Virus record (IMG/VR): IMGVR_UViG_3300003322_000435
Location: 1 to 40,396 of that record
Strand: one strand, 5' to 3'
Origin: a virus
Length of the DNA stretch: 40,396 nt
A program made the translations under genes and the position numbers. How positions within the stretch are numbered: the first letter of the stretch is position 1; each line of letters begins with the position of its first letter. This document shows, one piece after another, positions 3,292 to 40,217 of the stretch. A model generated the notes under the pieces. That model had not been told where the DNA came from and ran no database searches. It was given only the letters and a program-made list of their open reading frames with translations.

Positions 3292-3310
3292 CTAAATGTG
3301 GTTGACGATT

Positions 3311-3369: not shown

Positions 3370-3374
3370 CGATG

Positions 3375-3491: not shown

Positions 3492-3543
3492 CATTTCGTG
3501 GTGACGAAATGTAGGTTTCGCGACCACGAAATGCACATTTCGC
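3492..3543. promoter_or_regulatory. Cluster of CATTTCG/CGAAATG palindromes in an AT-rich gap
   Basis: Five copies of the word CATTTCG in alternating orientation lie within about 50 bp. They include an 11-bp inverted repeat CATTTCGTGGT (3492-3502) / ACCACGAAATG (3523-3533) enclosing another CGAAATG/TTTCG pair, and a final CATTTCGC at 3536-3543. This looks like a multi-site operator or a structured transcript. The gap 3292-3690 is AT-rich. The open frame 3372-3650 (plus) spans these repeats and has no RBS or protein-like composition, so it is not called. Confidence 0.45.
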
Positions 3544-3690
3544 AAGTTAACTTTTCATCGCACAAGCTTTTCTTTGATTACAGCTCCCGAATACAAATGA
3601 AAATGACAGTTGATCTTGTTGCTCAGATGCAACGGTTAACCGCTTATTGAACTAAAGCCCTGGCTGTGCAGACGCCTGCACAGCGCGCCC

Positions 3691-5005: not shown

Positions 5006-5483
5006 CTACCTTGGCGCCAAGCCGCGCTACTTCACGGTCGGCATCTTCAGCGAGGTTTCGAAGACCGCGCTCAACCGCTTCTGGTAGCTCGACGGATTCG
5101 ATCGCTCCGCCTGCATCAGCTCGGCCGGCGCCTGTGGCTTCTCCGGCTGGGGCAGCGCAATCACGCTGGGGGATTGTGATGCGCAGCCGTTGACGATCAG
5201 CAGCAGCGCGCTCAGCAGCAATACGGTCTTCGCTTTCATGGAGCCTCTTTTCGTAGTTGGTTATGGTGGCGCGGGCGGCTGCAAGATCTTTCTGGCGGTC
5301 CGCTTCGTTCTTGGCGACGGCGGTGAGCACGGCCTGCTTCTCGTGCTCGGCTCGCTGGAGCTTGTCGCGGTCCCAGTCCGCCTGGACGCCGGCGGCGCCG
5401 AAGTGATGGCCGGTCGCCGCCACCCCAACCAGCAGGCTGCCCAGCATCAGGACACCCAGCAGCAGCTTTTCGAGCGCAATCAC
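4953..5483 (-). CDS. Rz: Rz-like i-spanin
   Basis: 176 aa from a GTG start (RBS GAGGTG) that overlaps the endolysin stop (GTGA). It has an N-terminal signal anchor (LLLGVLMLGSLLVGVAATG, residues 7-25) and a long periplasmic coiled coil rich in Ala, Glu, Lys and Arg (KNEADRQKDLAAARATITNY...). It ends with the EAVERGLRNLAEDADREVARLG helix. Inner-membrane Rz pairs with the outer-membrane lipoprotein Rz1 to fuse the two membranes in the last step of lysis. The Rz1 frame is embedded in this gene, the classic nested arrangement. Confidence 0.85.
   Translation of the reverse strand: MIALEKLLLGVLMLGSLLVGVAATGHHFGAAGVQADWDRDKLQRAEHEKQAVLTAVAKNEADRQKDLAAARATITNYEKRLHESEDRIAAERAAADRQRLRITIPQRDCAAPAGEATGAGRADAGGAIESVELPEAVERGLRNLAEDADREVARLGAKVDALQDWIRSHGFYDPGP
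5027..5239 (-). CDS. Rz1: Rz1-like o-spanin lipoprotein, nested in Rz
   Basis: 70 aa read out of frame inside Rz. It has a lipoprotein signal (KAKTVLLLSALLLIVNGC, with Cys19 in the lipobox), then a short Pro-rich mature part (LPQPEKPQAPAEL). The latter is typical of Rz1 proteins, which anchor to the outer membrane and bind the C-terminus of Rz. The end, SLKMPTVK, is basic. Position, length, lipobox and overlap leave little doubt. Confidence 0.85.
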   Translation of the reverse strand: MKAKTVLLLSALLLIVNGCASQSPSVIALPQPEKPQAPAELMQAERSNPSSYQKRLSAVFETSLKMPTVK

Positions 5484-5947
5484 GGCGTCACCTCGGCCGG
5501 CAGGGTCTCGAAGCGCACCAGGTTGCGGCCGCGCATGATCGCGATCAGCTTGCCGGCATAGGCCGGGTCGGTCGCGTAGCCGGCGGCCGCGACCGCGCGT
5601 GCCCAGCCCGGGCCAGTCTTCTCGACGAAGCAGCGGGCGTAGCGTGGGTTCTCGAGGAAGAACTGCGTGTGGTCCTGAATGGATGCCGCCCAGCTCGGGT
5701 ACGCACGGAACTTGTCGACGGGGTGCGCGTCGGCGCCGCCGATGTGCTCTGTCGTCCGGAAGCTGACCGTCGGTCCCTTCCACGATTTGTCCGCCTTGAT
5801 GCCGAACAGGTTGTTGCCCAGGGCCAGCTTTCCCCAGTAGGATTCGAGCGCGGCCTGCGCCAGCGTGAAGCTGGCCGGGATGCCGCTCGTGCGCTGACAG
5901 GCTACGGCGGCCGGCAGCAGTTGGTCGAGGAATTCGTCGGGCGTCAT
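5480..5947 (-). CDS. Endolysin, glucosaminidase/FlgJ-type muramidase
   Basis: 155 aa from ATG 5947, which overlaps the upstream holin-like stop (ATGA). The core matches the glucosaminidase (FlgJ/N-acetylmuramidase, GH73) fold: GIPASFTLAQAALESYWG with catalytic Glu35, then NNLFGIK at 46-52 and the WAASIQDHTQFF segment. No signal peptide is present, so release needs a holin. It hydrolyses the glycan backbone of peptidoglycan. It lies between two holin-like membrane proteins and the spanins in one overlapping lysis cassette. Confidence 0.88.
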   Translation of the reverse strand: MTPDEFLDQLLPAAVACQRTSGIPASFTLAQAALESYWGKLALGNNLFGIKADKSWKGPTVSFRTTEHIGGADAHPVDKFRAYPSWAASIQDHTQFFLENPRYARCFVEKTGPGWARAVAAAGYATDPAYAGKLIAIMRGRNLVRFETLPAEVTP

Positions 5948-6192
5948 GAGGCCGCCTTCGCAGCTTTGGCGGCCGCACGCGCACCGTGCACGATGTTGTA
6001 GATGACGAGGGCCAGGCCGACGGCACGGAACACATTGGCCGGCAGGTACTGTGCCATGTCGGGCAGGTTCTCGCGGATCCCGGCAATGATGGAGTCGGAG
6101 AACGGATATGCGGCCAGCAGCACCGCGTTCAGCCATACCGTGAACGAGCGGCGCGCGGCGCGCAGGTGGTCGACGAAATTAGTCGGGAACAT
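5944..6192 (-). CDS. Small membrane protein of the lysis cassette (holin or antiholin)
   Basis: 82 aa, RBS AAGGAG. A basic amphipathic head (MFPTNFVDHLRAARRSFTVW) leads into a first hydrophobic stretch (LNAVLLAAYPFSDSIIAGI). A second follows (NVFRAVGLALVIYNIVHGA), and the end is basic and Ala-rich. It overlaps both the upstream LydA-like holin and the endolysin, so it is translationally coupled to lysis. A second membrane protein next to a holin is often an antiholin. Which of the two makes the lethal hole is not decided by sequence. Confidence 0.65.
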   Translation of the reverse strand: MFPTNFVDHLRAARRSFTVWLNAVLLAAYPFSDSIIAGIRENLPDMAQYLPANVFRAVGLALVIYNIVHGARAAAKAAKAAS

Positions 6193-11466: not shown

Positions 11467-11834
11467 GCTGCGCGCGCCCAGAATTCGATCACCTCGTAGG
11501 CATCGCGGATTACCGACATCTCTTCATAGCGGTTGCCGGCATCGAGCGCGTGCAGCACCTTCCCCTGGTAGAACACGCCGCAGTGATGCAGTCCCGTCGA
11601 TGGCGTCTTACCCATCAGGATGATGCAGTAGTCGGCCGGCTCCGCGACCTGGGCGAAGCCCTCGGGCGACTTGTGCAGGGCGATGCGGAAGGCGCCGGCG
11701 ATCGCGCGGATCGAGGTGTTGATGGTCTTGTAATCCGTGACCGGCAGGGCCAGCTCGGAAGTGTAGACGTCTGCAACCAGCTGCCAGCAAGGCGGCGTGT
11801 CGTATTGCTTGGCCAGGTAGGCGTTGATATTCAT
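11463..11834 (-). CDS. NlpC/P60-like tail assembly peptidase (lambda K-like)
   Basis: 123 aa. It shows the catalytic Cys16 in PCWQLVADVY, the His in GLHHCGVFYQGKVLHAL (His83/84, with His95 following) and the overall size of phage NlpC/P60 domains. In lambda the K protein of this family is part of the tail tip complex and may open peptidoglycan during DNA entry. The gene overlaps the hub gene downstream (4 bp) and abuts the DUF1833 gene upstream, as is standard for the tail-tip block. Confidence 0.8.
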   Translation of the reverse strand: MNINAYLAKQYDTPPCWQLVADVYTSELALPVTDYKTINTSIRAIAGAFRIALHKSPEGFAQVAEPADYCIILMGKTPSTGLHHCGVFYQGKVLHALDAGNRYEEMSVIRDAYEVIEFWARAA

Positions 11835-12831: not shown

Positions 12832-15401
12832 GAGCGGGACCTCGGCACGGAGTAGTTACGGTTCATTGCGCGCGACGTGCGGCTATTCGGGTCGGCCAGC
12901 GAGGACGCCGTGGCGTTCACGGCCTCCTCAATGATCAAAGCCCGCTCGGTAGCGGAGATGCGCTGCTCGGTGACGTTCCCGATCGGCGTCCGGGTGTTGT
13001 TCACGATGGTCAGCTTCATGTCGCCGCCACCGCCCCCGATCTTGTCGTTCGGGATGATGGTGCCGTGGGTGGGCGGCCGGAAGATTTCCGGCCCCTTCTC
13101 GCCGACCAGGAAGGCGCCGCCATCCCATACCGATCCGCCCTTCTCACGTGCGCCAGCGATCGCCGTGCCCGCAACCAGGCCAGCTGATGCATAACCCATT
13201 ACCCGGGTGATCGTCGCGTAGGCTTCACCAGCCGCCACGCCCGCTGCCAAGATCGCCGGGCCGGCCGGGCCCGACACCGCGGCCGTCGCGCCTGCAGCGG
13301 CAATCATCCCGGCCTGCGCCGCAGCTGCAGCAACCTCCGTGTTCACTATGATCGTCGCGACCTGTATGGCCTTCTGGGCGTAGAACATCGCCTTACCGAG
13401 CGCCGTCTGCTCCAGGCCCGCCGCTTTGATCGCGTCGTACAGCTGTCCAGCGGACGATTCTGCGATGCCGAGCAGGTTTTGCGCGGATGACAGCTGCATG
13501 TTCGTCATCGCCTCGTTATGCCGGCGGTTCTCGAGCTCGATGAGACGGTTGCCCTCGATGGTGTTGGCGAGAGACTCGTCCTGGAATGACTTCAGGTCCT
13601 TCAGCCGGTTTGCGTGCAGCTTCTGCTCGGCCTCGGCCGGCGTCTGTAACTGCTCCGCGATCTGGCTTCCGGCGCCTTGGTTCATGGCACTGCTGACCTT
13701 TTGCGCGTGGTCTGCAGCATCCTTCCGGAACTTCGCGATCGATTCCTCGGTGATCGTCCCCTTCTCTTTCGCCTGCCTGATCTTCTCCTCGATATCCAGC
13801 TCAAGGCGCCGTGCCTCTGTGAGCTTTGCTACCTCGAGCGCCGACTTCCCATACAAGTCATTTGTAAACCTCAGCTGGCTTTCCGCCTGGTCCTGCTCCC
13901 GGTTCCAGTCCTGCATCGACTTGTTCAACCCGGACTGTGCGGCCGACATGCTCAGTGTCTGCATTTCCAACGCACGGGTCGCGTCCATGCGGGCCTTGTC
14001 CCGCAGCGCGACCTTCTCGGCGATCTGGTTCGCAATCTCAGCCTTGTCGGCATCCTTGCCTGCTGCCGCCCGGGCTTTCTGCAGTGCCGAGATCTCCACG
14101 TCGTACGCACGAACCGAAGCGTCCCGGGCCTGCTCGATCGCGGCAATCTTGTACTGTGCATACGTCTGCACATCCACGATGTCCTGGGCACGCAGCTCCT
14201 GCATGAACTGGTCCTGGAAGGCGGCTGTATCGCGCTCCTGGGCGTAGGCGACCTCGATCGCCTTGATCTTGCCCTCCAGCAGGGCCTTGGTCGGGTCGTC
14301 GCCCTTCGCGCGCAAGGTCGGTGCGCGGGGCTTGGGCTTATTGGCATCGTCGGCCACATCCGGGGCCGGGACCACCGCAGGCTGCGGCGTGTGGTCGAGG
14401 ACCTTGTCGATGAACGCCTGGTGCTCCTTGGCCGCCTTCTCGGCATCGGCCTTCATGGCGTCGCCGATCACGTTGAAGCCCCTGATGTCACCATGTGCCA
14501 GCGCAGCGAGCTGGGCCGCGATGCCCCCAATCTCGGTGCCGACAGCCTTGAAGGTGAAGGCAACTTCCGATCCGACGACAACAAACGTTTCAAGGACCGT
14601 GCGAACTACCGCACCGGCCAGAGAGAACTTGTTCGAGCTTTCCGCGGCGCCGAGCATCTCATCGGCCATTGTCTGCAGGACCGGAAGCACAGCCGACGAA
14701 ATCGAGTTGGCGAAGCCCTTCTGTTGGACCGTAAGCTTGCCCATCGTGTCGTTGAAATTGTCCGATGCGGCGGCCAGTTCATCCGTCACGCCGCTGTACT
14801 GCTTGGCGTAGGCGATGTTCTCACGCAGCGCGTCACCACCATCGTTCAGCAGCGGGATCATGTCGGCGCCGGCCTTGCCGAAGATGCGCAGTGCAATCGC
14901 CGACTTCTCCGGGCCGTCGGCGTAATCCTTGAACTTGTCCGCAACCTCGGCAATGACGACGTCGGCGGTCTTCAGATTGCCTTGCACATCGCGGACCGAG
15001 ATTCCCAGCTTGGAGTACGCCTCGATCATGTCCTTGTTGCCGCCCGCAGCCTCGGCGACGGACTTGTTCACCTTGCCCGCAGCTGCCGACACGCTTTCCA
15101 GGTTACCGCCGGCCTGGCCAGCCGCAAAACCGAGGCCATTCAGCGTTTGAACCGCGACGCCGGTTTTCTGGGACATATCGCGCAACTCGTCGGCCGCGTC
15201 GATCGAGCCCTTGATCAGTTCCGCAAACGCGCCGACTGTCAACCCGACACCAAGAAATTCGAGAGCCTTTTTCCCGGTCTCGATCGCACCCTCGACACGC
15301 TTCATGGCGTCCTCGGTTTCCTTACCCGATTTTTTCATGTCGCTGAGGTACTTCGAGATGTTTGCCTCAAGCGTGACAACGAGCGATCCGAGGTTTGCCA
15401 T
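12828..15401 (-). CDS. Tail tape measure protein
   Basis: About 857 aa from ATG 15401; a TTG four codons upstream is possible but less likely. The N-terminal region (SLVVTLEANISKYLSDMKKS) and the TGVAVQTLNGLGFAAGQAGG segment are typical of tape measure proteins. A long helical, coiled-coil body rich in Ala, Lys, Glu and Gln follows (about 360-620). The hydrophobic VATIIVNTEVAAAAAQAGM...AGPAILAAGVAAGEA stretch comes near 690-740. The C-terminus carries WDGGAFLVGEKGPEIF, common in lambda-like tape measures. It sets the tail length and enters the host membrane during ejection. It is preceded by the lipoprotein gene and its terminator. Confidence 0.88.
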   Translation of the reverse strand: MANLGSLVVTLEANISKYLSDMKKSGKETEDAMKRVEGAIETGKKALEFLGVGLTVGAFAELIKGSIDAADELRDMSQKTGVAVQTLNGLGFAAGQAGGNLESVSAAAGKVNKSVAEAAGGNKDMIEAYSKLGISVRDVQGNLKTADVVIAEVADKFKDYADGPEKSAIALRIFGKAGADMIPLLNDGGDALRENIAYAKQYSGVTDELAAASDNFNDTMGKLTVQQKGFANSISSAVLPVLQTMADEMLGAAESSNKFSLAGAVVRTVLETFVVVGSEVAFTFKAVGTEIGGIAAQLAALAHGDIRGFNVIGDAMKADAEKAAKEHQAFIDKVLDHTPQPAVVPAPDVADDANKPKPRAPTLRAKGDDPTKALLEGKIKAIEVAYAQERDTAAFQDQFMQELRAQDIVDVQTYAQYKIAAIEQARDASVRAYDVEISALQKARAAAGKDADKAEIANQIAEKVALRDKARMDATRALEMQTLSMSAAQSGLNKSMQDWNREQDQAESQLRFTNDLYGKSALEVAKLTEARRLELDIEEKIRQAKEKGTITEESIAKFRKDAADHAQKVSSAMNQGAGSQIAEQLQTPAEAEQKLHANRLKDLKSFQDESLANTIEGNRLIELENRRHNEAMTNMQLSSAQNLLGIAESSAGQLYDAIKAAGLEQTALGKAMFYAQKAIQVATIIVNTEVAAAAAQAGMIAAAGATAAVSGPAGPAILAAGVAAGEAYATITRVMGYASAGLVAGTAIAGAREKGGSVWDGGAFLVGEKGPEIFRPPTHGTIIPNDKIGGGGGDMKLTIVNNTRTPIGNVTEQRISATERALIIEEAVNATASSLADPNSRTSRAMNRNYSVPRSRS

Positions 15402-22246: not shown

Positions 22247-24232
22247 TCAGTCCAGCCAGTTATCAGTACCCGACAGCCACGTGCTTTCGGGGGGGGGTTC
22301 GTCTTGGGCCGCCGGTGCCGGCGGGGTCGCTACAGCCGGCGCAGGTATCGGCATCGGAGCCGGGGGCGCGTCACTAGGATCTGCTTCTGCCGGCGTCTCC
22401 TCGCCGGCCGGGGCGAGCGGCGCCGTGAACAGATCTCCGTTGACCGGTTCGATCATGCTCTCCAGCTGGGCCCAGTCGGCGTCGCGCATCGTGTCCAGCC
22501 GCAGCAGCGGGTGATACGCCGCGGCGAAGCCGTACACGAACAGGTCGATCACCTCGTTGCGGCGTCCAGGCAGCTTGCGCCACTGGGACTTGCCGGCGTC
22601 GTAGACCTCGGCCGTCAGCTGCTCGAAGTACTCGTCCGCCAGACCTGCAGGGAAGCGAATGAAACGGTCTTCCGGGACCGACTCCTCATCGGAGGCGATG
22701 TAGTTGAACAGCAGCGACTTCGCCGTGTCGGTGCCGACGTGCCACAGCTGCACGCCACTCTTGATGGTCCGGCCCTTGTGGTTCACGTCCATCGTGACTG
22801 GCCGGCCGATGACGGGCTTGCCGGCGGTCGATGCGCCCTTGACCGCGAACACGCCCGCGTGCCGATACAGCCGAGCGTAGTGGTAGACCTCGTGCGTGTG
22901 ATGGCCGCCGGAGTCGATTGCACACGTCTGCACACGCATCGATACGCCGAAGCTGTTCACCAGAGGGCGTTCGCGCAACGTCGTCAGGCGCGTCCACACG
23001 TCCTCCTTGGCCGGGTCGCCATCGATGAGACCGTAGTCGATGACCCAGTGCTTCTTGTTGCGACCGAAGCCGAGCACCTGGTATTCCAGGCGATTGCCCT
23101 GCACGTCGACGGACATCACCAGCGCCAGGCAGCCCTTCGGGATCGAGCGCAGCGGGTAGTTCTCGCGTCGCTTCGCAATTTCGGCGCCCTTCACTTGGCC
23201 GCTCAGGTCTTCCCAGCACTCGGCCAGCTCGTTGTTCACGAAGGCCTTCAGCGCGACCGGGGCGCCCTTTGCAGCGACGAAGTCCGCCGCCAGTTCCGGC
23301 CATGGGCGCCAACCCAGCGGCGCGTACAGCGACGGCAGGTGGAAACTGGCTACACCCGGCTCGCCCTTGGCGGTCGGCTGCCAGTAGGCGCCCTCGTAGC
23401 CGCGCGTCTTCCACTCGGCCTCGGTGCTGAGCACGTCGCAGCACTCGCACAGGTAGCGCGCCTTCTCCGGCTCGCCCTCCGGCCACTTCATCTGCGGCCA
23501 CTTGAAGAACTGGCGTGCCCCGCAGTCGGGGCACTGGACCATGTACTTCTGCTGGTCGCCGCGCAGGTAGTTGCGGTCGATCGGCGAGCTGCCGACGATG
23601 GTCGGCGTGCTGTTGCCGAAGATGCGCGCCTTGCGGCCAAAGTTGCTGGTCCGCTTTTTCGCCAGCGTCTCGGGCGCGCCCTGGTTGCCGATGTCGCCGG
23701 CATACTCGTCCATCTCCTCGAGCAGCACGTAGCGCATCGTCGAGGACTTCAGGCCGCCGGGCCGGTTCGCGCCGATGATCTGCAGGAACCCGCCCGGGAA
23801 TTTCTTCCGGCGCTGCGTATTGTCGGAGCCCTTGACCTCCTTGTCGCGGATCCGCTTCTTCAGCTCCGGCGTCGAATCGCGCATCGGCTCGAAGCGCGAC
23901 AGGTTCCACTTCTCGCCGTCCTCGACGGTGGCGAACACCGCCAAGATGTTGCCGGCCGCGGACGTGATCGAGTGGCCGATGAAGTTTTCACCGAGCGCCG
24001 AGCCGCCTAGCTGGTGGCCCTTCTTGAGGTAGATCTCCCGGTAGGGGCTGTCGGGCGACAGCGCATCCATGATGCCGACCAGGTAGGGCGTGCGGCTGTT
24101 GCGCCAGGGCCCCGGCTCTGGGCTGTCCGGCGGCAGCACGCGGTAGGTCTCCGCCCACTCGGCGATCGGGATCCGGCTGTCCGGCTTGATCGCATCGGTG
24201 AGGGACCGGATGAATTCGTCGACTGCACCCAT
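22247..24232 (-). CDS. Terminase large subunit (lambda gpA family)
   Basis: 661 aa. The N-terminal ATPase has the P-loop-like KKGHQLGGSALGEN (residues 70-83), in the place of lambda's KSARVGYS Walker A, and a Walker B-like YVLLEEMDEYAGD. A zinc-ribbon-like insertion follows (CPDCGARQF ... CECC). The C-terminal RNase H-like nuclease contains LVMSVDVQGNRLEYQVLGFGRNKKHWVIDYG. The end is Pro/Ala-rich and contains a G9 tract in the DNA (22289-22297). With the small subunit it cuts concatemers at cos-type sites and drives DNA through the portal. Confidence 0.92.
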   Translation of the reverse strand: MGAVDEFIRSLTDAIKPDSRIPIAEWAETYRVLPPDSPEPGPWRNSRTPYLVGIMDALSPDSPYREIYLKKGHQLGGSALGENFIGHSITSAAGNILAVFATVEDGEKWNLSRFEPMRDSTPELKKRIRDKEVKGSDNTQRRKKFPGGFLQIIGANRPGGLKSSTMRYVLLEEMDEYAGDIGNQGAPETLAKKRTSNFGRKARIFGNSTPTIVGSSPIDRNYLRGDQQKYMVQCPDCGARQFFKWPQMKWPEGEPEKARYLCECCDVLSTEAEWKTRGYEGAYWQPTAKGEPGVASFHLPSLYAPLGWRPWPELAADFVAAKGAPVALKAFVNNELAECWEDLSGQVKGAEIAKRRENYPLRSIPKGCLALVMSVDVQGNRLEYQVLGFGRNKKHWVIDYGLIDGDPAKEDVWTRLTTLRERPLVNSFGVSMRVQTCAIDSGGHHTHEVYHYARLYRHAGVFAVKGASTAGKPVIGRPVTMDVNHKGRTIKSGVQLWHVGTDTAKSLLFNYIASDEESVPEDRFIRFPAGLADEYFEQLTAEVYDAGKSQWRKLPGRRNEVIDLFVYGFAAAYHPLLRLDTMRDADWAQLESMIEPVNGDLFTAPLAPAGEETPAEADPSDAPPAPMPIPAPAVATPPAPAAQDEPPPESTWLSGTDNWLD

Positions 24233-25654: not shown

Positions 25655-25771
25655 ATGCGCTCCTGGTGCAGACGCGTGCACGTCACCCACAACCCGCACG
25701 CCGCGTCCGTCCTGCTAGATGCTTGAGGTCGGATGCGCGGCGGGCTAAGATGCTCGTGCGGTACTTCGAAT

Positions 25772-27762: not shown

Positions 27763-30294
27763 TTAGAACGGCAGCGGTTCACGGTCTTCCTCCACTGCCT
27801 CGGCCCCTTGCCCCGCTTCCGCTGCTGGGCGCTCGTAATACCAATCGCGGGCGCCGCTGGAGTCGCGCCGCTTGATCCAGCCCAGCTTGCGCATGATCGC
27901 CGCCACACGCATCGTTTCGGACTTCGCCGGGCCCATCTTCGAAAGCTCGATATGCAGCGCCCTGGTCAGCAGCTCGCGCGCCGTCACGCGTACGAGCTTG
28001 CCGGCCGCCATCGGCTTGCCTTCCGAGTCCATTCCTTCCAGGTACTCCCAGATCCGGCCGCGCCATGGGTCCGGGATCTCGCGGCTCTCCTGCATCGGGT
28101 CGATCAGGCGCCGCTGCTGCTCGTACGTCGGCCACCACTGGACGCCGGCATTCATCAGCGAGATCGCTTCGCCGAACAGCTGGTCACGGTCGGCAGTCAA
28201 GGCCGCAATGTCCAGCGTGCCCGTCTCCACCGGCCAGAAGCGCCGGTTGCCGGTCGTGTCCTTGAAGTAGGCGTCCTCGTTGGTCGTCGCCGCGAAGGCG
28301 CAGCGCCTGGGCACGTTCTTCATGCGCCGGCCGTAGGGCTCGCGGAACCGGTCGACCGTGCTCGACATGAAGGCCTTGATCGCCGTGACCTCGGAGCGGT
28401 TGAACTGCTCGAGCTCGGCCACCTCGTACAGCAGCACGCCCTGGATCGACAGGTAGCCGTCCTTCTCGCCCATGCGGAACGGCGTGTCGGCGAACCACTC
28501 GCCGCCCAGCACCTTCAAGGCGGTCGACTTGCCGCGACCCTGGCCGCCCTCGAACACGGGCGCGTGGTCGTTCTTGACGCCAGGACGATACCCTCGCACC
28601 ACTATCCCGATCAGGAACAGCGTCGACACCAGGCGCATGTATTCCGAGTCCTCGGCGCCCCAATAGCGCGTGAGCGCAGTCGCGACCCGCGGCTCGCCGT
28701 CCCAAAGGTCGATGCAGCGGTCGAAGTACTCGATCACCGGATTGAATGTGTGCTTACGTGCCGCTTGCGCCACGCCGCGCTCGATGTCGCCTATCGACGC
28801 GAGCAGCAGGCCATGGTGCTTGGCCATATACATGCCGAGCTCGAAGTCATCCCCTTCAGTCCACTCCCCGGGCTCGCTGGACCAAGGCGTTTTCCTGCGC
28901 TTCACCTGCAGGCCCGAGAACTGGTCGAGCCCAACGAGGCCAATCAGGCGCTCGTCGTTTTCCATCACCAGGTACACATTCTCACGGCAGCCCTTGATGC
29001 CGCCGTTCGCGGTCGGGATCAGCATCGCGCGCAGCTGCTCGCGTGAACGGTTGCCCGCGCCAGCCGGAGGTGGGGGGGAAGTGCTTTCCAGCTGCACAGC
29101 CATCTGCTCGCCGACCCAGTCCGGCACATCGTCGAATGTCCCGGCGCCCGCCGGCATCGGGTCAATGCCAGCCGGCGCAGCCGGCGCGCTGCGCAGCTTC
29201 GCCGCCCATGAGATCACCTGCTCGGCGTCAGCACCGCCTGCAATCAGGTCCGCCACGTCCCAGCCGTCAGGCACCGCACCAGGTGCAGGGATGTCCACGA
29301 AGAACACATTACAGCCCTGGGCGCGCAGGATATCGGCGACCTTGTTCATCGCCACCATGCCAGGCTGCTCGTGCTCCGGCATGATCTGGCCGGCGCGCTC
29401 GTGCCCCTCCTTGTAGGTCTTGGCATCGGTGTCCGGCCATAGGATCACGTCCCGGTCGCGGATGCTCGACCAGTTGCTCTTGCCGACCGCCTTGCCGCCA
29501 CCCGACCATGAAACAACCTCGAAGACATCGCCCACCGCCGCCACGGCGGCGTCGACGCACTTCTCGCCTTCGACCACCAGCAGCGGGAGGTCGGGCCGGC
29601 GCGGGCCGCGCAGGTACAAGGGGCGTGGTTCCGGAAACGCCATCCATCGCCATTCGGAGGCTCCCGTATTCGGATGCCGGGCGAACACGCAGGGCAGCAC
29701 TTCCTTGCCCTTGCCATCCGACCGGACGAACCGGTAGATCACGCCGAGAAGGCGTCCCTCGGTGTCCCGGTACTCCCAGTGCGCCTCGGGCTTGCCGCGC
29801 ACCACGTGGGCTCTCGGATAAGGTCCGGCATCACCTGGGACTGGCAGGATCGGGCTCCACGGCGTCCGATTTTTCTTCTCGGCCGGTGCTCCTACCCCTT
29901 TGTCCGCTTGCGCAGGCGCAGGATTAGGTGACGTTTTTGGCTTCGCCGGGATGGCGCGCGGCTTCGTCCCGCTGCGCGGGGCATCGGATTCGGTGAGCTG
30001 GACACCGAGTTTCTCGGCGAGCGCGGCGCAGGCCTGGCCCGGCCGCAGGTCGTGGATGTAGGCGTAGAGCGAGATCAGGTCGCCGCCGGCTGCGCCGTCG
30101 GAGAAGTCGGACCAAACCCCGGCTTTGTCACCGTTCAGGCGAATCCGGAGCGACTGGCCCTCTTCGCCGCCGCGTGAACCGATGCAGAACTCATTGCCGC
30201 CCTCGATCCGCCCCTTCGGAAACCACTCCTCGAGGAGCGATTGAATAGAGTTGAGCGCTGCGCGCCCAACTACCGAAAAATCGTCAAGCGTCAC
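27763..30294 (-). CDS. Phage primase-helicase (toprim plus VapE/VirE-type P-loop ATPase)
   Basis: 843 aa from the GTG at 30294, which overlaps the upstream stop (GTGA); a GTG ten codons upstream is possible. The first ~110 residues resemble a primase zinc/DNA-binding head lacking obvious cysteines (FCIGSRGGEEG...GVWSDFSDGAAGGDLISLY). Then comes a toprim-like part with LLVVEGEKCVDAA (about 238-250) and DVILWPDTDAK. The C-terminal VapE-type helicase shows Walker A FEGGQGRGKSTAL (about 581-593), Walker B-like LLYEVAEL and sensor FAATTNED. It should prime and unwind phage DNA at the origin. It is the core of the leftward early operon. Confidence 0.85.
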   Translation of the reverse strand: MTLDDFSVVGRAALNSIQSLLEEWFPKGRIEGGNEFCIGSRGGEEGQSLRIRLNGDKAGVWSDFSDGAAGGDLISLYAYIHDLRPGQACAALAEKLGVQLTESDAPRSGTKPRAIPAKPKTSPNPAPAQADKGVGAPAEKKNRTPWSPILPVPGDAGPYPRAHVVRGKPEAHWEYRDTEGRLLGVIYRFVRSDGKGKEVLPCVFARHPNTGASEWRWMAFPEPRPLYLRGPRRPDLPLLVVEGEKCVDAAVAAVGDVFEVVSWSGGGKAVGKSNWSSIRDRDVILWPDTDAKTYKEGHERAGQIMPEHEQPGMVAMNKVADILRAQGCNVFFVDIPAPGAVPDGWDVADLIAGGADAEQVISWAAKLRSAPAAPAGIDPMPAGAGTFDDVPDWVGEQMAVQLESTSPPPPAGAGNRSREQLRAMLIPTANGGIKGCRENVYLVMENDERLIGLVGLDQFSGLQVKRRKTPWSSEPGEWTEGDDFELGMYMAKHHGLLLASIGDIERGVAQAARKHTFNPVIEYFDRCIDLWDGEPRVATALTRYWGAEDSEYMRLVSTLFLIGIVVRGYRPGVKNDHAPVFEGGQGRGKSTALKVLGGEWFADTPFRMGEKDGYLSIQGVLLYEVAELEQFNRSEVTAIKAFMSSTVDRFREPYGRRMKNVPRRCAFAATTNEDAYFKDTTGNRRFWPVETGTLDIAALTADRDQLFGEAISLMNAGVQWWPTYEQQRRLIDPMQESREIPDPWRGRIWEYLEGMDSEGKPMAAGKLVRVTARELLTRALHIELSKMGPAKSETMRVAAIMRKLGWIKRRDSSGARDWYYERPAAEAGQGAEAVEEDREPLPF

Positions 30295-30713
30295 GCTGCT
30301 GCCTTCTCTCCGTGGGGAATGCACAGGTCCCCCATGCGGGACGGGATCTCGCGGTAATCGAGCGCCCCGGGCCTCATCACGGACGGCCGCGGCATATTGC
30401 GGGTAGAGAGCGGGCGCATCACGTAAGCGCTGGCCGGCGGCGCGACAACCGGCTCAGACATCGGCACGGCCCCCGCTGCGCCCAGAAACGCCAAGCCGCT
30501 GTCGGTGAGCACGAGCAGGTTCCCGCGCCTGAACGCAAGACGGAAGTGTGCGAGCGGCTTGATGACGATGCGGTCGAACTGGCCTTCTGACTCGGCCCAA
30601 CCAGCCGCTGTCATGAAATCGGGTACGTTGATTTGTCCGCCTGCCTTATGTAACTCAACGAGCGCGAGGTAGGCGCGGCTGCCGGCGTTCGGACCCTTGC
30701 GTGGCGCGCTCAT
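30291..30713 (-). CDS. Small phage protein, probable winged HTH
   Basis: 140 aa from ATG 30713 (RBS GGAGG), overlapping the upstream regulator stop (ATGA). The sequence AYLALVELHKAGGQINVPDFMTAAGW is followed by EGQFDRIVIKPLAHFRLAFRRGNLLVLTDSGLAFLG, which reads like a winged helix domain. A Pro/Met-rich tail ends it. It precedes the primase-helicase, the place of replication loader or regulator genes. The function is unknown. Confidence 0.6.
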   Translation of the reverse strand: MSAPRKGPNAGSRAYLALVELHKAGGQINVPDFMTAAGWAESEGQFDRIVIKPLAHFRLAFRRGNLLVLTDSGLAFLGAAGAVPMSEPVVAPPASAYVMRPLSTRNMPRPSVMRPGALDYREIPSRMGDLCIPHGEKAAA

Positions 30714-31543: not shown

Positions 31544-31572
31544 ATTATTACATACGTATTGAAGCGTAACAA
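31544..31572 (-). promoter_or_regulatory. Leftward early promoter (pR-like) for cro
   Basis: Minus strand TTGTTA (31567-31572), 17 bases, AATAAT (31544-31549). Operators at 31547-31561 and 31570-31584 overlap both elements, so repressor binding shuts it off. Confidence 0.75.
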
Positions 31573-31609
31573 TACCTTTGTAATGAGGAAAATTATTACA
31601 ATCGTGATA
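31547..31609. promoter_or_regulatory. Repressor operators, cluster 1 (three sites)
   Basis: Fifteen-bp pseudo-palindromes ATTAC-N5-TATTG type: 31547-31561 (ATTACATACGTATTG), 31570-31584 (inverted, CAATACCTTTGTAAT) and 31595-31609 (weaker, ATTACAATCGTGATA). Two related sites lie in cluster 2. The third site touches the CI start codon. Confidence 0.75.
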
Positions 31610-32328
31610 TGAATACACTTAGAGAGCGCCTGATTTGGGCCCGAGCCCAGAAAGCTGATCGAGACGGAACCGAGTTCACCCAAACTGATCTCGCAGCAAA
31701 GGCTGGCGTTACTCAAGGCAGTATCGCCCACTTAGAATCAGGCCGCACACAGACTTCCAGGAAGATTGCTGCGATAGCTGAAGCCTTAGGTGTGGATGTC
31801 AACTGGCTCAGCCAAGGAAAAGGAGACCCGTTCAGCAAACCTGCCTCGCCTGACCGTTTGTCGGAGCTCCCCGGTGTAAAGCGCGTGTTCCTTGCAGGTG
31901 AAGATCATCCGGGGCGGACGAAGATTCAGAAGGTAAAGCTAAAGTTGTCCGCTGGTATAACAGGCTTTCAGGTCGAACCCGATCAACGAGACGGTGGGAT
32001 GTGGGATTTGCCTACCCGCTGGGTACAAAAAACTGGGTACAGCCCTGAAAAGCTCCTTGCTATCGACGTCAAAGGTGAAAGCATGGAACCTTCTTTGTAC
32101 GACGGCGACCTGGTCGTAATTAACACCGCTGACACCAAGCCGGTCAGTGGGTATGTTTATGCCGTTAATTATGAAGGCGAAGCCGTCATCAAACGACTGA
32201 TCCGTGAGGGCGGGCAGTGGTACTTGGCTTCGGACAATCCTGCGCCGAAGTTTGGCCGCCGGGCTTGTCGTGGGTCCGAATGCATCATTGTTGGTCGCGT
32301 CGTCCGCAGAGAAACCGATCAGATTTGA
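31609..32328 (+). CDS. cI: CI-type phage repressor with S24 self-cleavage domain
   Basis: 239 aa. The N-terminal helix-turn-helix is EFTQTDLAAKAGVTQGSIAHLESGR (about 22-46). The linker is followed by the S24/LexA-like domain with cleavage site Ala115-Gly116 (KLSAGITGF), catalytic Ser158 (GESMEP) and Lys195 (AVIKRL). RecA-stimulated cleavage should induce the prophage. Its start overlaps operator 3, and there is no close RBS. Expression may therefore be leaderless or weak, as with lambda pRM. The operators on both sides of the gene should allow cooperative looping. A terminator follows at 32375. Confidence 0.92.
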   Translation: MNTLRERLIWARAQKADRDGTEFTQTDLAAKAGVTQGSIAHLESGRTQTSRKIAAIAEALGVDVNWLSQGKGDPFSKPASPDRLSELPGVKRVFLAGEDHPGRTKIQKVKLKLSAGITGFQVEPDQRDGGMWDLPTRWVQKTGYSPEKLLAIDVKGESMEPSLYDGDLVVINTADTKPVSGYVYAVNYEGEAVIKRLIREGGQWYLASDNPAPKFGRRACRGSECIIVGRVVRRETDQI

Positions 32329-32403: not shown

Positions 32404-32412
32404 CCCAAATTC

Positions 32413-32450
32413 ATTACAAATGTATTGAACTCGAATAGTACGTATGTAAT
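32413..32450. promoter_or_regulatory. Repressor operators, cluster 2 (two sites)
   Basis: Sites ATTACAAATGTATTG (32413-32427) and TAGTACGTATGTAAT (32436-32450). Start-to-start distance is 23 bp, the same as sites 1 and 2 of cluster 1. Confidence 0.72.
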
Positions 32451-32453
32451 AAT
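32425..32453 (+). promoter_or_regulatory. Rightward early promoter (pL-like)
   Basis: TTGAAC (32425-32430), 17 bases, AATAAT (32448-32453), overlapped by both cluster 2 operators. It drives the plus-strand operon 32487-39401. Confidence 0.75.
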
Positions 32454-32642: not shown

Positions 32643-33013
32643 CTTCAGTGACCCGCACCCGCGCGCCGAACTCCCGCGCGCGCACGACCCAGCTGGGCAC
32701 GGGGGAACTGCACCAGGTACTCGAGGACGCACGAGACCGCGCGGCACTGGCGCAGTTTTGCAGTGCACACGTCTGCACTTCTCAGGATGTGTCGGAAGAC
32801 GGCAGGCGTCTCCACATGCCGCGCGTGCTCCAGCTGATGCGCGACCGCGGTTATCAGGTCTCGGAGCCCGCGAAGTCCCAGCTGCAGCCGAAAGCGAAGC
32901 AAGGGTTCACCGCCTGGCTCGTCCACATTCGCACGCCGCGCATCACGGTCCAGTGTGCCGAGCTGGCGGCGGTCGAATTCGACATTGGCTTCTATACCTC
33001 GAACAACCGCTGA
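32639..33013 (+). CDS. Hypothetical phage protein (124 aa)
   Basis: Coupled to the preceding gene by ATGA. Basic head (TSVTRTRAPNSRART), then HQVLEDARDRAALAQFCSAHVC and an RRLHMPRVLQLMRDRGYQVSEP segment, ending with VQCAELAAVEFDIGFYTSN. Not assigned to a family. Early lambda-left genes of this sort often disarm host functions. Confidence 0.55.
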   Translation: MTSVTRTRAPNSRARTTQLGTGELHQVLEDARDRAALAQFCSAHVCTSQDVSEDGRRLHMPRVLQLMRDRGYQVSEPAKSQLQPKAKQGFTAWLVHIRTPRITVQCAELAAVEFDIGFYTSNNR

Positions 33014-33025: not shown

Positions 33026-33655
33026 ATGGCCGATGTCAAATCGAAAAGTTGCCTCGAAATCTTCCAGACACGGGTGATTGACCCTGTCGACAAGGATCTA
33101 GCGATCGGCGACCCGCGCAGCACCGAATATCGCAACGGCATGCTCGACGCGTACGCGCATCGCGAACTGCGCATCCCGATCCCAAGACCCCTTCGCTACA
33201 AGCTTGGGACCTCCCAGGCCGACGCCTACTTCGCCGGGAATGAGCGCGGTCATGCCCTGTGGCGGCGCCTTCATCTGGCCGACTCGAAAGCTAATACCCC
33301 ATCCCACCTTCAACCAGGAGCAACCATGAGCACTATTCAGACCATCCGCCCTAGCTCAATCAAGCATCTGTGCGTCAACTGCCGCCATATCAAAGAGGGA
33401 GACAAATGCATGCCATCGCTGTGCGCCGCGCCATCGGTAATGAAGACCTTCTCTTTGGTCAGCGGGCGCCAGGTCGGGCCGTACTGCGGCGATCAGCGCA
33501 GCGATCGCGGTGAATGCACGCCTGCAGGTCTGCTATTCGAGCGGGCCCCCCAGGCGTACGCACGCGAGCCTTATTCCCGTGATGCCTCCGCTATCGATTC
33601 GCCGGCCGTGCGTACGGATTCGGACAACGCCTCGAGCGCCGGCGCGATGCGGTGA
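33026..33655 (+). CDS. Hypothetical protein with Cys-rich C-terminal half, possible second start
   Basis: 209 aa from ATG 33026 (RBS GGAGG). A second in-frame ATG at 33326 (MSTIQTIRPSSIKHLCVNC) has its own good RBS (AGGAG). The frame may thus make two proteins or be two genes joined. Cysteines in HLCVNCRHI, KCMPSLC and the YCGDQRSDRGECTPAG segment suggest a zinc-binding fold in the C-terminal part. The last 85 bases overlap a gene on the other strand. The function is unknown. Confidence 0.5.
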   Translation: MADVKSKSCLEIFQTRVIDPVDKDLAIGDPRSTEYRNGMLDAYAHRELRIPIPRPLRYKLGTSQADAYFAGNERGHALWRRLHLADSKANTPSHLQPGATMSTIQTIRPSSIKHLCVNCRHIKEGDKCMPSLCAAPSVMKTFSLVSGRQVGPYCGDQRSDRGECTPAGLLFERAPQAYAREPYSRDASAIDSPAVRTDSDNASSAGAMR

Positions 33656-33843
33656 CTGAGCATTGAGGCGTGGTAGTCCTTGGATGCGGCATCCATGAAA
33701 GCAACGACAAGCTGCGGGAATTTAGCGGCAGATCCTTTCCCAAGAACTTCATCGACCGATGCCACTGCCGCGCGCAGATAGCCGTGTGCCGTCCTCTCGG
33801 CACTGGACATCAGGTCTTTATAGCTCACGCCACGCTCATCCAT
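33571..33843 (-). CDS. Hypothetical protein encoded against the operon (90 aa)
   Basis: ATG 33843 has a good RBS (AAGGGA). Sequence VSYKDLMSSAERTAHGYLRAAVASVDEVLG, then AFMDAASKDYHASMLSHRIAPALEALSESV; all helical. It is protein-like and the strand bias around it has no plus-strand gene between 33656 and 33890. It is the only minus-strand gene in the rightward operon, so it may be a moron expressed in the lysogen. No family found by eye. Confidence 0.55.
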   Translation of the reverse strand: MDERGVSYKDLMSSAERTAHGYLRAAVASVDEVLGKGSAAKFPQLVVAFMDAASKDYHASMLSHRIAPALEALSESVRTAGESIAEASRE

Positions 33844-33890: not shown

Positions 33891-36014
33891 ATGAGCAGCA
33901 CCGCCCTAGCAGTGGCCGACCAGGCCGACACCATAATCGCCGACGAGCTCGTGAACGACGACGGCATCTATGGCCTGTACGAGCTCGCCAGGATGCGCGC
34001 CTCGCCGGACAACCGGAAGCGCTTCAACGAGCAGGCCCTGCAAGAGCTGGCGGCCAGCATCAAGGCGATGGGTGTCGCTCAAGCCATCCTGATCCGTCCA
34101 GTAACGCCGACACCGGATGCCCCCGCAGAATACGAGATCGTCGCCGGCGAGCGCCGGTTCCGCGCGTCGAAGATCGCCGGCAAGACCCACATCCCGGCAC
34201 TGTGCCGCAAGCTCAGCGACCTGGACGCCGCCAAGATCAGGATCCTCGAGAACCTGCAGCGCGAGGACCCTCACCCGATGGAGGAGGCCGAGGGCTATCA
34301 GCTGCTCATGCTGCAGCACGGCTTCACGGCCGACCAGCTGGTCGACGAGGTCAAGAAGAGCCGGGCCTACATCTACGCGCGCCTGAAGCTGTGTTCGCTG
34401 ACGCCGGCGGTGCGAGAGCAATTCCTCGACAACAAGCTGTCAGCGTCGACGGCGCTGCTGGTGGCGCGCATCCCTGTGCCGGCGCTGCAGGTCAAGGCTT
34501 CGCAGGAGATCATGAACCGGTACGGCACTGGCGTGCCCATGTCGGCCCGCGACGCGGCGAGCCACATCCAGGGCCGCTACATGCTGAAGCTGAGCACGGC
34601 GGTGTTCTCTATCACCGATGCCAAGCTACTGGCCACGGCCGGCGCCTGCACGAAGTGCCCCAAGCTCACCGGAAATCAGCCGGAGGTCTTTGAGGGGATC
34701 GACGCAAACGTCTGCACCGATCCGGACTGCTTCTCGGAGAAGCGTGCCGCCCATGGTGCGGCCCTGCTCGTCCAGGCTAACAAGCAAGGTATCCCCGTGC
34801 TCGATGGCGACGAAGCCGCACAGACCCTGTCGCGCCGCTACAGCCAGGACAGCGAGCTGGTGACTGCCGACATGAATCTTTGGTACTTCAAGCGTAATGC
34901 GCCGTCGACCCAGAACAACGGCTACGTCAATGACTTCCTGCGCGGCTCTGCCCTGCCGCCTGTTGCGAGCTATGTGAAGAGGGACGATGGCAGTCTGACC
35001 CCACTCTACAAACGATCCGACGTGCAGGCTGCGCTCGAAGCCTGCGAGGCTTGCGAAACGGTCGAAGCGCACACCGAACGCATGGCCGAGGTCAAAGCGG
35101 CGGACCCCGCAGGGACCGCAAAAGAGGAAGCTGAGCAGGAAAAGGCCCAGGCGCGTCAAGCGCTTATCGATCGGGAAAACACCTACCGGCTTGCGCTGTA
35201 CAAGCAGCTGCGCCAACGCGCGAGCGTGGGCGCCCGCGGCCTATCGTCCCTGCGCGAGTTCGTCAAGGCTGTCGCCGAGGAGAACTGCCTTGAGGCGTCC
35301 CTGCACGACCTCTACGAGTCGGACGTCAGCACGGACCTCGACCAATACATCGACACCGCCGATGCCGGTGTGCTGCAGCTGCTCCTGATCGACCTGGTGC
35401 TCGGCCACCACCTGAAACTTCACTGGTATGACCTCAGGAACGACGGCAGTGTCGACGAGGAAGGCGGCTTTGCTACTGTCGTGGCGATGGCCCGCCATGA
35501 GGGCGTCGACGTCGACGCGGTTCGGGCCGAGGTCTTCCCGCCGACAGCACCGGCAGTAGCCGACGAACCCGCGCCGCCGATCGAAACGCCGGCTGCGCCC
35601 GAGCAGGCGCGAAGAGACGATGGCGCTGGTGCGGTCCTCGTCCGCTATCGAAATCCGGCCGACGCAACGCAAACCTGGACTGGCCGTGGCCGACAGCCGA
35701 AGTGGGTTAGCGATTGGGTCGGAAACGGCAAGTCGCTGGACGCCTTGCGAGTTGACACCGCGACGTCGGCCGACCAGGTCGACGACAAGCAGCCGCCCGA
35801 GGCAACGCCGATAGCGTCCGACCAGGTCGACGCCAAGCATCTGGCCGAGGTAACGACGGCCGACAACGATGTGCAGACGCCTGCACTCGACAAGAAAACC
35901 AAAGCGAAAGCCGCCGCCAAAGCCAGCTCGGGCAAAAAGCCCGCGGCGCCGGCGTCGTCGAAAAAGCCCGCAACGACCGCGTCGACGTCTCGCCCGAAAG
36001 CTAAGGCGGCGTGA
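33891..36014 (+). CDS. ParB-like protein with C-terminal H-NS DNA-binding motif
   Basis: 707 aa from ATG 33891 (RBS GGAG). ParB N-terminal region: EQALQELAASIKAMGV, the GERRF motif (86-90), ILENLQREDPHPMEEAEGY (118-136) and a KorB/ParB HTH (ADQLVDEVKKSRAYIYARLKL). A four-Cys element (CTKCPKL...VCTDPDC, about 248-275) may bind zinc. Residues ~579-605 contain YRNPADATQTWTGRGRQPKW, the H-NS C-terminal minor-groove binding motif. A twofold repeat and a long Lys/Ala/Pro tail follow. No ParA gene is near, so plasmid partition is unlikely. A nucleoid-like or gene-silencing role is possible. Confidence 0.8.
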   Translation: MSSTALAVADQADTIIADELVNDDGIYGLYELARMRASPDNRKRFNEQALQELAASIKAMGVAQAILIRPVTPTPDAPAEYEIVAGERRFRASKIAGKTHIPALCRKLSDLDAAKIRILENLQREDPHPMEEAEGYQLLMLQHGFTADQLVDEVKKSRAYIYARLKLCSLTPAVREQFLDNKLSASTALLVARIPVPALQVKASQEIMNRYGTGVPMSARDAASHIQGRYMLKLSTAVFSITDAKLLATAGACTKCPKLTGNQPEVFEGIDANVCTDPDCFSEKRAAHGAALLVQANKQGIPVLDGDEAAQTLSRRYSQDSELVTADMNLWYFKRNAPSTQNNGYVNDFLRGSALPPVASYVKRDDGSLTPLYKRSDVQAALEACEACETVEAHTERMAEVKAADPAGTAKEEAEQEKAQARQALIDRENTYRLALYKQLRQRASVGARGLSSLREFVKAVAEENCLEASLHDLYESDVSTDLDQYIDTADAGVLQLLLIDLVLGHHLKLHWYDLRNDGSVDEEGGFATVVAMARHEGVDVDAVRAEVFPPTAPAVADEPAPPIETPAAPEQARRDDGAGAVLVRYRNPADATQTWTGRGRQPKWVSDWVGNGKSLDALRVDTATSADQVDDKQPPEATPIASDQVDAKHLAEVTTADNDVQTPALDKKTKAKAAAKASSGKKPAAPASSKKPATTASTSRPKAKAA

Positions 36015-36352
36015 TGAGCCTGAGTCAACCGACCATCAGCGCGATCGTCTCGGCGCTGCTTCACGAGCGCGAGAACCTCAAGGCCGACCTAGCGTTTTGG
36101 AGTTTGCGTGCCAGCCGCGTTGGCAAGACTCACTGTCAGCAGATTAACCAGTCCCTTCAGGACAACGCCACAGCGCTGACCGAGCTCGCGAACGGCATGG
36201 CACCTTGGCTTAAACAACACCCCCAATACGGCTTTATCACCAAATCGAAAACGGCTTTATCACCAAATCGAAAGACACCGCATGAACTCGCTCACTCAAT
36301 TTCTGCACGCTCCCCTGACTCGCCTCGCCGAGGTCTTCGCCAACATCATTAA
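36014..36352 (+). CDS. Hypothetical phage protein with frame-shifted C-terminus
   Basis: 112 aa from ATG 36014, overlapping the ParB-like stop. The first ~75 residues (SQPTISAIVSALLHERENLKADLAFW..., to GFITKSK) look authentic. A 23-bp tandem duplication at 36228-36273 then shifts the frame and adds about 33 unrelated residues. Without it the gene would end ...ITKSKDTA and its TGA would overlap the next ATG (ATGA at 36282), the layout of its neighbours. The true ancestral length is thus about 79 aa. Confidence 0.6.
   Translation: MSLSQPTISAIVSALLHERENLKADLAFWSLRASRVGKTHCQQINQSLQDNATALTELANGMAPWLKQHPQYGFITKSKTALSPNRKTPHELAHSISARSPDSPRRGLRQHH
36228..36273. repeat. Perfect 23-bp tandem duplication
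   Basis: Two identical 23-bp units, 36228-36250 and 36251-36273, each beginning ACGGCTTTATCACC. Since 23 is not a multiple of three it changes the reading frame of the host gene. Confidence 0.95.
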
Positions 36353-37037
36353 GCCGTTCAAGCGCCTGCAGGCGCCGATCGCCGTCGACGCGCGGCCCGG
36401 GCACTGCGGCAACATCCTGACCCTGGTCGCGCACCTGTGCGACATGGACGACGACATGCAGCTGTACGTCCTGCGCTGGCTGGCGTACCCGTTGCGCAAC
36501 CCGGGCGCGAAGATGTCGACCGCACTCGTGTTCAATGGCGGCCAAGGGTCGGGCAAAGGCCTGTTCTTCACCCACGTGGCCGCCGCCCTGTTTGAGGACA
36601 ACGCAGCAAAGATCCGCCCCAACGACTTGTACAGTAAGTTCAACTACTGGGCCGTAGGCGCCAACCTGGTTGTGGTCGACGGTGACTATGCTCCGCGGCA
36701 CCTGGAGCGCATGAAGGCATTCCATGCCGCCGAGTCCTTCGAGATCACACTCAAGGGCCACGCTCCTCGCACCGTCGTCAATCGCCTGAACTTCGTCTAT
36801 TTGTCGAATCGTGACGACTTCCTGCCGGCGGACACCGGCAACCGCCGCTTCATCGTCGTCGAGGTGCCGCCGGCACGCTCGCGCGGCTTCTATCAAGCGA
36901 TCGCGTATGAGATCGCCAACGGCGGCCTGGACGCCTTCCGAGACTACCTGATGCGCGGCCTCGATATGGGCAACTTCAACGAGAGCACGCTGCCGCCGTC
37001 GACGTCGGCGCCGCGCGATGGCCGGAGGTCGGCATGA
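36282..37037 (+). CDS. P-loop protein of phage primase-helicase type (DUF5906-like)
   Basis: 251 aa. Walker A is FNGGQGSGKGLF (about 84-95); LVVVDGDY is Walker B-like; FVYLSNRDDFLP and NRRFIVVEVP are sensor-like motifs found in P4-type and DUF5906 helicases. The N-terminal half (LQLYVLRWLAYPLRNPGAKM-like) matches the same family. It is shorter than full primase-helicases and lacks a primase part. The prophage thus has two helicase-like proteins, this and the minus-strand one. Overlapped with the next gene by ATGA. Confidence 0.78.
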   Translation: MNSLTQFLHAPLTRLAEVFANIIKPFKRLQAPIAVDARPGHCGNILTLVAHLCDMDDDMQLYVLRWLAYPLRNPGAKMSTALVFNGGQGSGKGLFFTHVAAALFEDNAAKIRPNDLYSKFNYWAVGANLVVVDGDYAPRHLERMKAFHAAESFEITLKGHAPRTVVNRLNFVYLSNRDDFLPADTGNRRFIVVEVPPARSRGFYQAIAYEIANGGLDAFRDYLMRGLDMGNFNESTLPPSTSAPRDGRRSA

Positions 37038-38297: not shown

Positions 38298-39401
38298 ATG
38301 GGCCGAGCGCCGAGCAGGAATTTGAACTTACCATCGGGCATGCGTGCGCGCCATCGCCCGTCGGGAACGCATTACTACGTCGAAGTGATCGAGGGCGGCA
38401 AGCGTCTCGAAAAGCCTGTCGGTAAGGACTATACGGAGGCGGTGCGCCAGTGGGCTGAATTGAACAAGATGCCGACCGCCGGCAAGTCCATTACCTTCCG
38501 TCGTGCGGCCGAGCGCTACATGCGGGACAAGCTGCCCGGGAAGGCTCCTCGCACGCAAAAGGACAATCTCGAAGAGCTGGCCATGCTTTACAAGTTCTTC
38601 GATGACCCGCCCGCCATCTTGGATGAGATCGAGCCCATGCACATTCGCCAGTATCTTGACTGGCGCATTGAGTGGACCGTTGAAAAGAAAACGAAAGAGA
38701 ACGAGAAGCGGCTTAAGGCCAGGAAGGATCCGCTGCCGGTGCCTGCCAATGCCGGCCACGTGCGCGCGAACCGCGAGAAGGCCCTGTTCTCACACATCTG
38801 GAACTACGCCCGCGAGAAAGGCCTGACGAAGCTCGCGAACCCCTGTGCCGGCGTCAAAGGTCATAAGGAGACCGGGCGCGACGTCTACGTTGAAGACCAG
38901 GTCTACCTTGCTGTGCACGTGGCCGCCGAGGACTGGCTGCAGGACCTGATGGACCTGGCCTACCTGGTGGGCCAGCGTCCGGCGGACTCGCTCAAGATCG
39001 GTAGGACCGATGTCAAGGAAGGAGCCGTATGGGTCGAACAGAACAAGACCGGGACGAAGCTGCGGGTGGCGATCGAGGGCCAGTTGGAAGTCGTAATCAA
39101 CCGCATACTGGCCCGAAACGCTACAGAGAAAGTCACGAGCCTGCGATTAATACCGAAGAGCTACAGCCAGTTCCGCAATGCGTTCGACCGAGCGCGCACT
39201 AAAGCTGCCGAGCAGCGCCCGGAGCTGGCCGCTGAGATTCGGGAATTTCAATTCCGCGACCTGCGCGCCAAGGCCGGAACAGACAAAGAGGAGCAACAAG
39301 GCATGGAGGCGGCGCAGAGCCAGCTGGGCCACGCTTCACCAACGATGACCAGGCAATATGTTCGTCATCGTAAAGGGAAGTTGGTTAAGCCAACAAAATA
39401 A
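38298..39401 (+). CDS. int: Tyrosine recombinase, phage integrase
   Basis: 367 aa. The N-terminal arm-binding/core-binding region is followed by the catalytic domain: Arg227 (GQRPAD), Lys250 (QNKTGTK), box II FQFRDLRAKAG with Arg323, GHAS with His345, and nucleophile Tyr354 (TMTRQYV). The usual first His of box II is Arg320. It recombines the 21-bp core in the CAU tRNA. It lies next to the reconstituted tRNA at attR and downstream of the DUF4224 gene. Confidence 0.92.
   Translation: MGRAPSRNLNLPSGMRARHRPSGTHYYVEVIEGGKRLEKPVGKDYTEAVRQWAELNKMPTAGKSITFRRAAERYMRDKLPGKAPRTQKDNLEELAMLYKFFDDPPAILDEIEPMHIRQYLDWRIEWTVEKKTKENEKRLKARKDPLPVPANAGHVRANREKALFSHIWNYAREKGLTKLANPCAGVKGHKETGRDVYVEDQVYLAVHVAAEDWLQDLMDLAYLVGQRPADSLKIGRTDVKEGAVWVEQNKTGTKLRVAIEGQLEVVINRILARNATEKVTSLRLIPKSYSQFRNAFDRARTKAAEQRPELAAEIREFQFRDLRAKAGTDKEEQQGMEAAQSQLGHASPTMTRQYVRHRKGKLVKPTK

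Positions 39402-40138: not shown

Positions 40139-40217
<79 letters not shown>

Follow-up and report, generated by a model that had tools for sequence, protein, structure and literature searches.

What does a ParB-like protein with an H-NS-type DNA-binding motif do in a phage that carries no ParA? The question is raised by a 707-aa fusion gene, parB-hns, at 33891–36014 on the plus strand of the window, by which we mean the whole stretch of DNA analysed (an IMG/VR virus record of 40,396 nucleotides; positions refer to it unless another record is named). The gene runs from an ATG at 33891 to a stop codon at 36012–36014; an in-frame ATG also lies upstream at 33759, and the starts of homologues fall near 33891. 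The protein comprises, in order, a ParB_N domain with the CTPase fold (residues 40–123, 34008–34259, Pfam E = 4.2e-22), an HTH_ParB domain (residues 125–210, 34263–34520, Pfam E = 4.9e-13), a stretch with four cysteines, a long middle part of helical character, the C-terminal domain of H-NS and a tail rich in Lys and Ala (about residues 673–707, 35913–36011). A sequence-only reading had noticed a ParB N-terminus, a Cys-rich insert, the motif TWTGRGRQPKW and a Lys/Ala tail in this one protein, and the Pfam matches and the invariance of the cysteines bear this out.

The ParB part matches the TIGR00180 profile above its cut-off, and comparison of its predicted model with the Caulobacter ParB–parS structure (6t1f) gave a VIA-align Z of 20.0 over 186 residues (3.6 Å). 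The nucleotide motifs are kept as VAGERRFRA and ENLQRED, with GERR and ENLQR invariant among 22 relatives. In the alignment, Asn41 takes the Gln position of the canonical NPxQPR loop, which has lost one residue in length; NPR without the Gln also occurs in VarioGold, Aval, a Comamonas phage-plasmid and a PRTRC ParB. With GERR and ENLQR present and the Gln missing, CTP binding is plausible and hydrolysis less certain; the latter may differ from that of canonical ParBs or be lost. The cysteines (C253, C256, C275 and C280; 34647–34730) form a CxxC...CxxxxC motif that is also invariant in 22 relatives. Such an insert is not peculiar to the phage: a similar CxxC...C...C stretch occurs in a plasmid ParB of the PRTRC type.

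The absence of ParA, proposed from the letters alone, held on a wider search: PF13614 was found neither in the window nor in 30 relatives, and was present in 14/14 control genomes. The N-terminal ParA-binding motif, in the form (L/F/I)G(K/R)G(L/F/I) given in PMC12704722, is absent from the window's protein, in which no canonical ParB C-terminal dimerisation domain was found either. That the window holds an integrated temperate phage was likewise corroborated. Identical 21-bp repeats (GGCACCAACGGATTATGAGTC) lie on the plus strand at 2457–2477 and at 40165–40185, the latter within a tRNA-Met gene (40139–40217, minus strand), and are therefore likely att sites marking the left and right ends of the prophage. 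A tyrosine integrase (38298–39401) and a CI-like S24 repressor gene (31609–32328) are encoded on the plus strand, and the minus strand carries head, tail and terminase genes as well as a full primase-helicase (27763–30324). Downstream of parB is a second VapE/SF3 helicase-like fragment (251 aa, 36282–37037, plus strand), part of which shows 77% DNA identity to a second, inverted place in the related record L005; the fragment may thus have arisen by partial duplication of the primase gene. A 90-aa open frame (33571–33843, minus strand) lies between parB and the gene upstream of it.

An orphan ParB could still serve partition, if the H-NS domain moored parS-bound phage DNA to the host nucleoid and the DNA were inherited as a chromosome passenger. 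The lack of ParA and a possible action of the H-NS domain as a general DNA tether would suit such a role, and one ParB relative is encoded by a phage whose record is a 36.9-kb circular plasmid. The ParB of that record has no H-NS match, however, while the window phage and the named relatives have integrases and the window phage sits in a tRNA gene, so that we consider partition improbable.

Candidate binding sites came from a search for palindromes common to the relatives, which returned TGTGCAGACGTCTGCACA, with the 16-bp consensus core GTGCAGACGTCTGCAC. Allowing up to three mismatches, the window contains 8 copies of the core where 0.41 are expected, a number reached in 0/100 shuffles. Copies with one mismatch are found at 3666–3681, at 14156–14171, at 32763–32778 (upstream of parB in the same operon) and at 35871–35886 (in the tail-coding part of parB), and copies with two mismatches at 11761–11776, 22918–22933 and 25666–25681. 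A further copy at 34702–34717 falls on the Cys codons of parB itself; it has three mismatches here and is exact in many relatives. Most candidate sites are intragenic rather than at promoters, and late genes are covered. The canonical parS, TGTTTCACGTGAAACA, was not found in the window at up to three mismatches.

The palindrome is associated with this ParB. With up to two mismatches, 2–7 copies were present in each of 25/25 ParB-carrying records, whereas of the control phages, which have H-NS-type genes and lack this ParB, 7/8 had no site and 1/8 had a single copy. The exact 18-mer occurred in 119 IMG/VR stretches. Its reversed form gave 0 matches there, 0 in the ParB-carrying and control phage records and 0 in the host genome search, and chance or composition was therefore rejected as its origin. 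Among the matches listed, 55 contigs of at least 18 kb contained the 18-mer; 11 were members of the phage family already in the comparison, and 26/44 of the others encode this ParB. Among 393 genomes from a single bacterial family, that of the host, the exact 16-mer was found in 22/27 with the ParB and in 18/366 without it (Fisher p about 1e-20, kinship ignored), and 42/44 of the same-contig copies among the matches listed lay no more than 40 kb from parB.

Should the palindrome belong to another conserved protein of these phages, ParB would act elsewhere. A different protein could bind it, and in the related prophage L336, from which parB has been lost (no ParB_N match), two parS-like palindromes persist at the locus. 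Against this, the sites track parB in host genomes, VapE relatives at 35–39% identity without parB have 0 sites, and a copy is embedded in parB across the family. The embedded copy encodes Ser-Ala-Asp-Val-Cys-Thr. Its Ser codon is AGT in 26/26 genes, compared with 5.4% in the remainder of their sequence, and its Ala codon is GCA in 39/43, compared with 21% (kinship not fully corrected in either figure). This bias shows a constraint on the DNA and not on the protein alone. A separate owner of the palindrome consequently appears a poor bet, and we take the palindrome as a family-specific candidate parS, to which the phage ParB would bind.

ParB-less contigs with exact sites were considered as counter-examples. 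Many have genes in common with these phages, and several are plainly truncated representatives of the family; L336 is a real exception. It indicates that phages of this type can do without the gene and that the system is not indispensable. Between cI and the integrase, the usual place of parB, L336 encodes a 1011-aa NACHT-like NTPase (1436–4471 of that record; motif judged by eye), a possible defence gene.

The position of parB bears on when it would act. A PL-like promoter (32425–32453) with overlapping operator-like repeats lies at 32411–32453 on the plus strand, downstream of cI and upstream of the parB operon. Its minus-strand counterpart at 31544–31586 is a PR-like promoter (31572–31544), which these repeats overlap in inverted orientation. 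The repeats at the two promoters (I12 and I16) are inverted copies of each other and flank cI; in lambda, too, PL and PR lie on either side of cI. These repeats differ in sequence from the palindrome, and CI operators were rejected as its identity. The PL-like operon, in which parB sits, ends in the integrase, and the order of cI, small genes, parB, more small genes and integrase region is similar in VarioGold, Aval and the Comamonas phage-plasmid. Judging from this layout, CI appears to repress the parB operon, so that parB should be off in the lysogen and expressed early after infection or induction.

This timing weighs on a reading in which ParB spreading and H-NS-type binding keep the late genes of the lysogen off, in the manner of KorB or CgpS. 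H-NS domains are typical of silencers, and the candidate sites do cover late genes. But a silencer whose own promoter is overlapped by CI-operator-like repeats would not be expected to be made in a stable lysogen, and the operon position makes silencing there hard to credit.

The C-terminal domain itself (residues 585–621, 35643–35753, TWTGRGRQPKW at 596–606) matches Pfam Histone_HNS at E = 1.9e-15 (56.7 bits, cut-off 25.6) and also the solved H-NS-type structures of Ler (2lev), StpA (2lrx) and H-NS (2l92). The match is far beyond chance and, by its sequence, this is a genuine H-NS C-terminal domain. Structure prediction, which the sequence-only reading had proposed as a check, gave a separate folded beta-beta-alpha unit (pLDDT 70–82 at residues 585–620) with disorder on both flanks, rather than a buried or non-folding motif. 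The N-terminal oligomerisation domain of H-NS is absent: Pfam gives the C-terminal model only, and the N-terminus of the protein is ParB.

Nine of 31 related viral records have the H-NS domain, each time within the parB frame. The other relatives mostly have an unrelated domain of about 60 aa at the same place; L029 has both, and some distant relatives have neither. The nearest relatives of the window on the ParB-core tree, L005 and L006, have the non-H-NS domain, and the H-NS label changes 8 times on that tree, at least 5 changes being forced by well-supported branches (kinship not fully corrected). At the DNA level, similarity between the window and L006 extends to 35607, breaks for 164 bases around the H-NS domain (35608–35771) and restarts at 35772. 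Moreover, between the window and the distant L029 the H-NS part has a dN of 0.20, as between near relatives, against 1.15 for the middle region, which points to cassette exchange between lineages. On this sequence evidence the H-NS domain is an exchangeable cassette. Its pN/pS of 0.26–0.49 indicates that it is maintained under purifying selection. H-NS-like ORFs of 105–128 aa in genomes of the host family (Burkholderiaceae) have C-terminal domains up to 75% identical to it and are its probable source. The alternative domain is predicted by AlphaFold2 as three helices and a hairpin (pLDDT 87). Foldseek returned nothing at E <= 0.001, the best VIA-align Z was 4.0 and Pfam gave nothing convincing, so a winged-helix reading of this domain is only a guess.

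The H-NS domain is also joined to the ParBs of the distant phages L127, L140 and L163. No Pfam H-NS match was obtained in the ParBs of VarioGold, Aval or the Comamonas phage-plasmid. VarioGold, which has been isolated as a phage, shares the locus and its palindromic sites and thus represents the form without H-NS. Among annotated phages tblastn found four records with an H-NS-type domain, two of them annotated hns and 0/4 overlapping an annotated ParB gene. Other phage contexts were seen as well. L125 encodes an RdgC protein (E = 2e-97) with an H-NS C-terminal domain (5161–6138), a case in which the same kind of reader has joined another type of DNA-handling protein. An 83-aa protein of L123 (5881–6129) consists of the domain with QLGLF, similar to a sliding-clamp binding motif, in front of it, and a 754-aa protein of L134 (3850–6111) combines a ParB HTH with the H-NS C-terminal domain and has no ParB_N match. 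WPFP or WPWP, a possible binding motif absent from the window's protein, stands near the C-terminus of the ParB relatives L007, L012, L013, L018, L023, L024, L026, L034 and L035.

A domain of host H-NS type without the remainder of H-NS, in a protein of the early operon, invites a narrow counter-silencing role in which it guides ParB to H-NS-bound AT-rich DNA of phage or host, or competes for it. There is a precedent in VirB, a ParB-like protein that counteracts H-NS in Shigella (PMC10770331, PMC10653881); it is a CTP clamp of the ParB type and relieves silencing by H-NS (PMC10770331, PMC10653881, PMC10676424). Towards its ends and close to cI, the prophage does contain short AT-rich islands (3.2–3.6, 31.4–31.8 and 39.3–39.8 kb), and the candidate parS at 3666 adjoins the edge of the first. 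As a whole, however, the prophage is not AT-rich but has a GC content of 62%, which limits H-NS binding to it, most of the family lacks the H-NS domain and the majority of sites are intragenic and not at promoters. Counter-silencing as the sole role is accordingly unlikely, though less so than partition or silencing in the lysogen. Given the GC content and the shortness of the islands, counter-silencing is no more likely than organisation of phage DNA.

Taken together, these data favour, at a probability of about 0.5, an orphan ParB, made early by the phage, which loads at the dispersed palindromes and spreads from them to organise phage DNA and/or counter host H-NS. Expressed from a CI-controlled early operon and having no ParA partner, ParB would recognise the GTGCAGACGTCTGCAC palindromes scattered over the phage genome, load there as a CTP-dependent clamp and, by analogy with other ParBs, spread on phage DNA. 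The exchangeable C-terminal module would stand in for the canonical ParB C-terminal domain as a second DNA contact, some relatives doing without either module. The H-NS version would add a sequence-lenient, AT-preferring contact in the minor groove. Early in infection, clamp and H-NS module together would then organise or compact the DNA of the phage itself and/or dislodge host H-NS from it. The domains, the missing ParA, the cassette exchange, the constrained palindromes linked to parB and the operon position are read from the sequence. They support site-specific action well, whereas CTP clamping, binding of the palindrome by this ParB, AT-rich binding by the H-NS part and the biological purpose are what we infer. 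Three functions had been suggested for the fusion. Condensation or organisation of phage DNA and relief of H-NS silencing fit these findings better, and silencing in the lysogen and action on rival DNA fit them less well, since phage-borne palindromes and an apparently CI-repressed early operon suggest that the protein acts chiefly on DNA of the phage itself. A broader proposal, which we hold tentatively and at somewhat less than even odds, is a ParA-independent phage ParB–parS system that marks and coats its own genome early and swaps its C-terminal reader, the host H-NS domain having been captured several times to act against host H-NS or replace it.

Several known systems share parts of this design. 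The CTP-dependent clamps ParB, Noc and KorB have the ParB_N CTPase fold with an HTH and palindromic sites, for which the phage has candidates, one of them inside parB. Unlike them, the phage protein has no ParA or ParA-binding motif, lacks the canonical C-terminal domain and possesses a Cys insert and an H-NS module, and its candidate sites are dispersed over a 38-kb phage; the Noc profile TIGR04285 scores 133.3 against a curated cut-off of 315. The PRTRC ParB profile (TIGR03734) matches residues 38–287, the CxxC...C...C stretch included, but at 132.7 bits it stays below its cut-off of 278.6, and none of the PRTRC proteins encoded around the plasmid ParB was encountered in the phage. With the C-terminal domains of H-NS, Ler and StpA the phage protein shares the length of 36–40 aa, the TWTGRGRQPKW core and up to 75% identity to host ORFs, and it differs from these proteins in having no N-terminal dimerisation/oligomerisation part. 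VirB of Shigella is likewise a ParB-type clamp that acts on H-NS-controlled DNA outside partition; it counters H-NS, is not described as an H-NS fusion and has different sites, and it provides a mechanistic precedent. Orphan ParB-fold proteins of mobile elements joined to other domains are described in PMC12704722, the main text of which does not name H-NS as a partner, and no description of a ParB–H-NS fusion was found in the literature searched. ParB-fold fusions as such are already known; what appears new is that a ParB has captured an H-NS reader and has candidate sites of its own. One phage protein here unites ParB clamps and H-NS-type xenogeneic silencers, which are usually studied apart. 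The concrete candidate parS makes the role of an orphan phage ParB without ParA directly testable, and the cassette exchange allows the same clamp to be compared with and without its H-NS reader.
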